Below, piece after piece: positions 4,767 through 5,927 of a DNA stretch of 28,610 nucleotides. Within the stretch, counting starts at the first letter, position 1. The number at the start of each line of letters is the position of its first letter. Under the pieces are notes generated by a model. It searched no databases. It worked only from the letters and a program-made list of their open reading frames with translations, and had not been told where the DNA came from. The position numbers were made by a program, and so were the translations under genes. The stretch is from IMG/VR virus record IMGVR_UViG_3300047319_000210, positions 1-28,610 of that record. One strand, 5' to 3'. Source of the DNA: a virus.

Positions 4767-5099
4767 ATGCTCTACACGAAATTCTCAGCATTATTACGCT
4801 CGCCAGCGAACGCCATCATGGCCGCTCGTGTAAGCGCGTGCTCAGTCATTGCGCGCCGGGCGGCCGCCTTAAAGCGCCACATCGGAACCCGCACGGTGAA
4901 ACAAGACCAGCTTGCCCGCGCGCTCGCTCAGGCAACAGACGCATACCTGCGTTCTATCACGCCGACAAGTCAACTGACGCACAACCTGATCGCGGCAACC
5001 GCAGCCATCCTTGCGCGCGATAACCACGATCAGGTGAGCATTCGCATCGGCAACATACCCGCAATCACACGCAAGCCGATCGCAAGCGCGGCGGCATGA
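4767..5099 (+). CDS. Hypothetical early protein (110 aa)
   Basis: This 110-aa, alanine- and arginine-rich, mainly helical protein starts at ATG 4767 behind an AAGGAACGG ribosome-binding site; the frame is open upstream but has no initiation signal there and crosses the promoter. No family was recognised. It is the first gene after the operator-promoter at 4690 and has a leader resembling that of the outer-membrane protein gene at 16710 (A-rich, then GGAACGG or GAACGGAG just before the ATG), so the two may share regulation. Confidence 0.6.
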   Translation: MLYTKFSALLRSPANAIMAARVSACSVIARRAAALKRHIGTRTVKQDQLARALAQATDAYLRSITPTSQLTHNLIAATAAILARDNHDQVSIRIGNIPAITRKPIASAAA

Positions 5100-5167
5100 C
5101 GAGCGCAGAGCGGCGCAATACTGGCCGCCCGTTTTTTACAACTGTTCGGCTATGCCGGCGAGGGAAT

Positions 5168-5917
5168 ATGAATGAGTTGGCTCTTTTCGCGGGCGCTGGC
5201 GGTGGAGTGCTCGCGGGGCATCTGCTCGGATGGCGAACCGTATGCGCAGTTGAACGTAACGCCTACGCCGCACAAGTTCTGGCGCAACGACAGAATGATG
5301 GAATTCTCGGACCTTTCCCGATTTGGTCTGACGTCACGACTTTTGACGGACGCCCATGGCGAGGGATTGTTGATGTCGTATCTGGCGGGTTTCCCTGTCA
5401 AGACATCAGCGCGGCAGGTAAAGGCGCAGGCATCGACGGAGAGCGAAGCGGTCTCTGGGGATCAATGGCGCGGATCGTTCGCGAAGTTCGACCCCGATTC
5501 GTCTTCGTGGAAAACAGCCCAATGCTCACTTCTCGGGGACTCGGACGAGTTCTCGGAGACCTGGCCGCGATGGGGTTTGATGCGCGATGGGGAGTGCTGT
5601 GAGGACACCATGTCGGAGCCGCCAACCGTCGCGAACGAATCTGGATTCTTGCCGACGCCGAGGGCAAGCGTGGGAACACACGGCATCTGCTGGGCTCGCG
5701 CCAAGACCGGAGAGCACCGCAGCCAACTAGAAGACTTCCTAGGTTGGTTAAGCCTCAATCATGGCGGCCAAGTAGTTTCGGGGCGAACAGTGAATTCGGA
5801 CTTCCAGGACTGGCTGATGGCGTGGCCCACTCAGTGGACCGACTTACAGCCTCTGGGAATGGGCAAATTCCAGTCGTGGCTGCAGCAGCATTCACTATTC
5901 TCTCAAGCTCAATCTGA
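5168..5917 (+). pseudogene. Cytosine-C5 DNA methyltransferase interrupted by an in-frame TGA
   Basis: The frame starting at ATG 5168 (GAGGGA upstream) shows C5-methyltransferase motifs: motif I LFAGAGGGVLAGHLLGW, AVERN, motif IV GGFPCQDIS with catalytic Cys77, and FVFVENS. A TGA follows at codon 145 (5600-5602). Reading on in the same frame gives VGAANRRERIWILADAEG (motif VIII) and later VDRLTASGNGQIPVVAAAAF (motif X), ending at TGA 5915-5917. The spacing around the stop matches the usual family spacing, so a base substitution, not an indel, best explains it. The truncated product would lack motifs VIII-X and is probably inactive. A second gene is overprinted on this one in the +1 frame and remains open. 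Confidence 0.8.
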
Positions 5918-5927
5918 GGCCGCATAG
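5373..5927 (+). CDS. Phage protein overprinted on the C5-methyltransferase gene (184 aa)
   Basis: The +1 frame is open across the methyltransferase. ATG 5373 has a GAGGG at 5361-5365, seven bases upstream. The product has the pattern I associate with a family of stand-alone phage proteins: it begins MSYLAGFPVKTSA, contains SSSWKTAQCSLLGD and EFSETWPRWGLMRDGEC, has a PTPRAS segment, and ends with DWLMAWPTQWTDLQPLGMGKFQSWL. The ATG lies within the codons for the methyltransferase PCQ loop, and its WTDLQPLGMGKF end is read from the same bases as VDRLTASGNGQI. The family recognition is from memory and its function is unknown. The frame could be opened further upstream (ATG 5172), but that part has no such match. 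The intact frame, the ribosome-binding site and the broken partner frame together support a real gene. Confidence 0.68.
   Translation: MSYLAGFPVKTSARQVKAQASTESEAVSGDQWRGSFAKFDPDSSSWKTAQCSLLGDSDEFSETWPRWGLMRDGECCEDTMSEPPTVANESGFLPTPRASVGTHGICWARAKTGEHRSQLEDFLGWLSLNHGGQVVSGRTVNSDFQDWLMAWPTQWTDLQPLGMGKFQSWLQQHSLFSQAQSEAA

Follow-up and report, generated by a model that had tools for sequence, protein, structure and literature searches.

M.EcoHK31I and M.EaeI are C5-methyltransferases composed of two polypeptides, and both target YGGCCR. The ORF for the small chain of M.EcoHK31I lies inside that for the large chain, in another reading frame. The larger M.EcoHK31I polypeptide carries motifs I–VIII and X along with the predicted recognition domain, and the smaller polypeptide carries only motif IX (PMC3404938). 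M.AquI is split such that one chain holds motifs I–VIII and part of the variable region, and the other holds the rest, with motifs IX and X (PMC3404938). Out-of-frame coding is also known inside methylase genes of actinophages, which harbor hidden HNH genes of the ShiLan type (PMC11855218).

The window, by which we mean the whole stretch of viral DNA analyzed here (28,610 nt; IMG/VR record IMGVR_UViG_3300047319_000210), contains a C5-methyltransferase frame (frame A) that is cut by a stop codon, and a second frame (frame B), shifted by +1, that is open across the same DNA. Comparison with relatives leads us to conclude that the locus is quite probably a two-polypeptide C5-cytosine DNA methyltransferase, or the remains of one, encoded by two fully overlapping genes on the same strand. 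We found no description of such a phage overlap in the literature searched, which included only a minority of subscription papers.

Results

A broken methyltransferase frame beneath an open second frame

The features of the locus are as follows.

5160..5164, + strand: GAGGG Shine–Dalgarno-like sequence, 3 nt ahead of the frame A start and 7 nt ahead of the frame B start
5168..5599, + strand: first part of frame A, with C5-methyltransferase motifs I to VI (PF00145, 4e-23; phrog_363, 1e-49; alignment with relatives)
5172..5927, + strand: frame B, +1 relative to frame A, 251 aa, start ATGAGTTGG, putative beta subunit for motif IX and recognition (open frame; phrog_1008; conserved across 79 homologues)
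5373..5375, + strand: internal ATG, earlier proposed as the start of frame B (Met at this site in only some relatives)
5393-5401, + strand: PCQ (motif IV) of frame A, within its first part
5600..5602, + strand: TGA in frame A, truncating it before motif VIII (relatives intact at the site)
5603..5914, + strand: remainder of frame A, behind the stop (phrog_363, 1e-6; phrog_32758, 6e-8)
5627-5638, + strand: motif VIII region RRER of frame A, downstream of the stop
5808..5840, + strand: motif IX-like stretch of frame B, DWLMAWPTQWT (family consensus EWLMGWPxGWT; alignments and profile match)
5855-5872, + strand: motif X of frame A, GNGQIP, downstream of the stop and common to aligned relatives

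Frame A as a whole spans 5168–5917, and the PF00145 match to its first part comes from a Pfam profile search. The catalytic motifs I, IV (PCQ) and VI are present, and PCQ and ENS are conserved in an alignment with relatives. The initial annotation had described both this frame, with its methyltransferase motifs cut by TGA at 5600–5602, and the second frame running open through to 5927, and both descriptions are accurate. Read as a single chain, frame A of the window is incomplete, as it ends before motif VIII and so does not reach the positions of VIII, IX and X. Because the nonsense codon precedes motif VIII, the product should be inactive, as judged from its motifs. Frame A is also open upstream to an ATG at 5096 (5096–5602), where it overlaps the end of the preceding ORF, and a longer A start is possible.

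Five close relatives (L011, L013, L015, L016 and L017) read through the TGA position. These intact relatives could suggest that the TGA arose during assembly or sequencing and that the window pair works, a concern raised at the outset. Against this, a second contig, IMGVR_UViG_3300046531_000136 (L010), matches the window exactly over 3769 bp, TGA included, although it may not be an independent sample, and other genomes and metagenome bins carry different single nonsense codons in frame A. Given the identity of L010, a base-calling error is unlikely, and a working pair hidden by an artifact of any such kind is highly improbable.

The substitution that creates the TGA also converts a Trp of frame B to Cys at the GECW site, as had been predicted, and Trp is the majority consensus residue there among the 79 homologues. 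Because frame A keeps its other motifs and the change to TGA also costs frame B this common Trp, the window copy looks like a recent knock-out rather than a case of selective retention of frame B. The earlier proposal that the phage dropped the enzyme while keeping the overprinted protein is thus right about the state of the two frames, one broken and one open, and is not supported on selective retention, since the motifs of frame A are otherwise intact.

The window encodes a second DNA methyltransferase-like protein at 1691–2581 (SPPFESLFVFSNSERD), about 2.6 kb upstream of the C5 gene and adjoined by a helicase-like gene at 218–1690. Moonbeam gp66, which resembles the 1691–2581 protein, is encoded immediately upstream of the Moonbeam C5 enzyme.

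Start and family membership of frame B

The ATG of frame B at 5172 lies four bases after the start of frame A, and the two starts together (ATGAATGAG) are conserved. Across loci, 8 nt is the commonest distance from the Shine–Dalgarno-like core to the B ATG, leaving 4 nt to the A start. The A start varies among ATG, GTG and TTG, and is absent from its usual place in some loci in which the B start is present. The initial annotation had placed the B start at 5373, with an overlap of about 545 bases. We judged ATG 5373 to be an unlikely start, as the frame is open and conserved up to 5172; constraint on frame B extends almost to its start, which favors 5172 as the probable main start over the ATG at 5373. 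With frame B open from 5172, the overlap spans essentially the entire methyltransferase gene.

Frame B matches phrog_1008 (about 4.5e-19 to 8.4e-19, over residues 4–102 of the B protein, P0001) and phrog_26627 (4e-9). Profile searches of Pfam and NCBIfam gave no credible match to frame B, and searches of solved structures with frame B or with a short motif IX–X profile likewise returned nothing credible. In a plasmid collection, one B protein had just four relatives, all of them weak. The view of frame B as a stand-alone phage family therefore holds as far as a recognized family (phrog_1008) is concerned, and its independence is doubtful, since frame B overlaps a C5-methyltransferase frame in every closely examined locus, in scans that mostly used B motifs.

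Distribution of the overlap

Relatives gathered by frame A alone comprised 76 distinct phage genes. Stops in frame B, which if common would have counted against it, proved rare: the frame is open nearly to the end of frame A in 74 of the 76 genes and nearly always starts with an ATG four bases after the A start. The +2 frame of the same genes contains 8–27 stops. The two exceptions, L162 and L189, have frame changes that place the B ending behind frame A. Sets picked by frame B, from viral contigs and from bacterial genomes, repeat the same anatomy. In sampling that was uneven and relied on motif patterns, the overlap occurred in Pseudomonas, Acinetobacter, Nitrosomonas, Bradyrhizobium, Citrobacter, Pantoea, Verrucomicrobia and others. 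A few copies also occur in complete E. coli genomes, where only frame A is annotated. Among the loci inspected, no frame B occurred without a methyltransferase frame, intact or nonsense-broken, in scans that mostly used B motifs and with part of the hits inspected.

Six cases combine a nonsense-broken frame A with an open frame B: the window (with L010), viral contig L097, and L201, L202, L207 and L213 from bacterial genomes or bins. The latter five carry other single nonsense codons in frame A, and their remaining A motifs are intact. By these signs, the broken cases look like recent loss of a dispensable modification gene. Comparable internal nonsense confined to frame B was absent from the 76 genes picked by frame A, a comparison of small numbers between sets chosen differently. 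In the prophage of E. coli PCP07014 (L367), each frame has a stop, the two lying only a few codons apart, and RefSeq calls the methyltransferase a pseudogene with an internal stop.

A distant methyltransferase class (of the CPCQPFSAAGKG type) in genomes of the G001 family (L370, L371 and L372) also overlaps a second frame, which contains repeated WPTP and ends in LNPAHSRWLMGxPxEW. From these sequences, the overlap principle seems broader than the family of the window.

Selection on frame B

Synonymous-codon shuffling of 130 A genes predicted 594 ± 16 stops in frame B, compared with 23 observed; fully open B frames numbered 120 of the 130, with 0.75 expected from the same permutation. In the variable region after motif VIII, third positions of B codons (first positions of A) differ most, at 0.345 versus 0.189 for second positions of B (third positions of A). 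Divergence at B third positions exceeded that at A third positions in 23 of 27 informative pairs (23 versus 4; Wilcoxon p = 7e-5). Single-chain controls show the normal order (0.119 versus 0.215), with 12 of 13 pairs opposite to the overlapped loci. Changes silent in frame A are milder in frame B than random silent ones over codons 3–75 (z = 4.2 and 4.6); by the same test, z was 0 over codons 75–100, 4.6 over codons 100–125 and 2.6 over codons 125–155.

Could frame B be a passive shadow, held open by conserved A codons and G+C content and yielding no product? Conserved A motifs do force conserved-looking B peptides, and the +1 frame of 41 distinct single-chain enzymes is partly depleted of stops in the region of the B core after PCQ (40 versus 71 expected) and at the end (73 versus 97). 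Elsewhere these enzymes do not preserve an open +1 frame, with 70 stops versus 75 expected before PCQ and 105 versus 120 in the variable region. The shuffling result and the rank of B third positions as the fastest sites of the variable region are also at odds with a shadow, and we rejected a passive frame B on permutation, substitution and single-chain control tests, leaving it a negligible probability. The proposal that two coding frames share the same conserved DNA is borne out by the permutation and substitution tests alike, and the frame-by-frame constraint that had been called for was found, in that A-synonymous changes are conservative in B. Together, these comparisons show, at the level of sequence, that both frames are under selection in relatives.

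In the single-chain actinophage methyltransferases of Tweety (L005), PFR1 (L006) and Moonbeam (L192), motif IX lies in frame A, yet a reduced +1 ORF persists that includes the SETWPxxGM core known from frame B.

Motifs divided between the two frames

Using regular expressions, on which all motif counts depend, we found that frame A contains motif X and lacks IX, while frame B has a motif IX-like ending and lacks X, in 148 of 173 distinct loci; none of the 173 had motif IX in both frames by the pattern used. A further 19 loci have motif X in frame A and a frame B that fails the strict IX pattern. These include the closest relatives of the window, L011 to L017, which carry LMVWPPAW or LMVFPSAW at the motif IX site of frame B.

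Many single-chain relatives have MMGWPxGW in frame A, mostly 24 residues before motif X. In actinophage enzymes such as Tweety gp72, MMGWPxGW is followed by GNGVVP or GNGVCP, an arrangement that agrees with motifs IX and X in order and roughly in distance. In a profile comparison, the B ending matches the in-frame segment of single-chain phage enzymes (probability 96.9). The in-frame motif IX–X piece gave no match to solved methyltransferases in direct sequence comparison, and PF00145 covers it only weakly (E 0.04; 13.8 bits, under the 22-bit cut-off). We assigned motif IX by where it lies, by the profile match to single-chain relatives and by the weak Pfam hit. The B sequence EWLMGWPxGWTDL is the +1 reading of RVADGxxxRVDRL in frame A and may therefore be conserved in part only passively. 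In a third architecture, seen in L029, L086, Mycobacterium phage Dylan gp7/gp6 and Streptomyces phage Samy gp49/gp50, motif X is in frame B as well. Across all three architectures, each motif is present once. These patterns show that the motifs are split in a complementary manner and that frame A is without a small domain.

TIGR00675 matches frame A of the Citrobacter prophage (G001) only at positions 4–166 of 329. A structural model of an intact A protein (from L047) can be superposed on 178 of the 327 residues of M.HhaI (Z 19.6; rmsd 2.4); residues 167–217 of the A protein have pLDDT < 50. According to this model, frame A is a large domain without the small domain. Frame B modeled alone (pLDDT 57; pTM 0.23) gives no fold support for a recognition domain; a chain that needs its partner in order to fold could yield such a poor prediction. 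As frame B holds the motif IX that frame A lacks, it is most likely, on motif content, the partner subunit of A. The complementary motifs, and the fact that single-chain relatives with motif IX in frame A mostly do not keep frame B open, make the pair resemble a two-polypeptide enzyme.

Two other readings also treat frame B as a translated sequence. In the first, it is a real overprinted protein with its own function outside methylation, such as anti-restriction or regulation, which the window phage kept when it lost the enzyme. Selection on frame B over most of its length would suit this idea, as would the six loci with frame A broken and B open, set beside the lack of comparable B-only nonsense among the 76 A-picked genes. 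However, no methyltransferase-free B was found among the loci inspected, B bears a motif absent from A, relatives with motif IX in frame A mostly leave B closed, the broken loci retain their other A motifs, as after recent loss, and the window substitution itself damages a common B Trp. We therefore regard an independent function as unlikely.

The second reading replaces two initiations by programmed frameshifting that fuses A and B into one chain. One-base insertions or deletions do join A to B, in a G-rich stretch after PCQ in L024, L028 and L030, later in L162 and L189, and in the opposite order in L254. But frame B has a near-invariant ATG of its own with a ribosome-binding site about 8 nt before it, a downstream shift would leave the constrained N-terminal part of B (z 4.2–4.6) unexplained, and some loci without the usual A start codon still have the B start; a fused product accordingly has very little probability. 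The joins in L024, L028, L030 and L254 may reflect genuine switches of frame, a site prone to slippage, or errors in sequencing.

Discussion

We favor a two-polypeptide methyltransferase as the explanation of this locus. The start codons of the two frames, spaced by four bases (ATGAATGAG), would share one ribosome-binding site. Frame A would yield the catalytic large domain with motifs I–VIII and X, and frame B a protein ending in motif IX and probably carrying the DNA-recognition surface. The two chains would then come together as a single active enzyme, in the manner reported for M.EcoHK31I. Such an orphan phage enzyme would modify the phage's own DNA, most plausibly against host restriction. 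In the window phage, frame A appears to have been inactivated before motif VIII, and frame B may still be open because the event was recent. From sequence comparison, we infer that both proteins are made, bind each other and methylate DNA.

A more general view is possible, and we hold it tentatively, at somewhat less than even probability: phages may possess a widespread class of methyltransferases in which a single piece of DNA encodes both complementary halves, each in its own frame, and B serves for target recognition. With genes that overlap, start four bases apart and share a ribosome-binding site, the halves would be inherited together and made in linked amounts, and lineages appear to move between single-chain, split and fully overlapped forms through frameshifts.

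Annotated genomes contain few same-strand gene pairs that overlap over their full length and probably act together. The overlapping phage pair is widespread and under-annotated; it occurs in phages as well as in bacterial genomes, across hosts as different as Pseudomonas, Acinetobacter, Citrobacter, E. coli and Verrucomicrobia. Public annotation retains one frame per pair in L001–L004, L007, L190, L191 and L366, usually frame A as 'DNA cytosine methyltransferase'. L366 is an intact pair from a prophage of E. coli PT62. Some records name frame B alone, as 'hypothetical protein' in Pseudomonas phage phPA-G and Vibrio phage 1.236.O. With mostly one frame retained, many 'DNA methyltransferase' records may describe half an enzyme, and cloning of frame A alone may yield an inactive one. 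The pair also poses a testable general question, the birth of a protein atop an overlapped gene followed by obligate partnership with that gene.

Among known systems, the ShiLan-type genes are mobile insertions that encode an endonuclease, unlike the window pair, in which the codons of the methyltransferase do double duty. phrog_1008 ('DNA methyltransferase', 329 positions) is matched by frame B of the window, L086, Dylan gp6 and Samy gp50; its name is silent on the overlap in another frame with phrog_363 and phrog_116 genes and on the lack of motifs I–VIII. The two-chain split of M.AquI is paralleled by L029, L086, Dylan gp7/gp6 and Samy gp49/gp50, which have IX and X in the second chain, whereas window-type pairs have motif X in the first chain and are not of the M.AquI type.

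M.EcoHK31I is closer. Compared by published motif layout, its division into a large chain with I–VIII and X and a small chain with IX recurs in the 148 of 173 relatives, and the window has the same anatomy with frame A broken. The phage pair also has an overlapping ORF for the second chain, as M.EcoHK31I does. The small chain of M.EcoHK31I is shorter (about 176 aa) and starts within the large gene, unlike the phage pair, whose starts are four bases apart and whose ends nearly coincide. M.EcoHK31I moreover belongs to a restriction-modification system, and its large chain is credited with the recognition domain, whereas selection on the phage pair suggests that the variable region matters more in frame B. 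By analogy, the phage pair most likely works like M.EcoHK31I.
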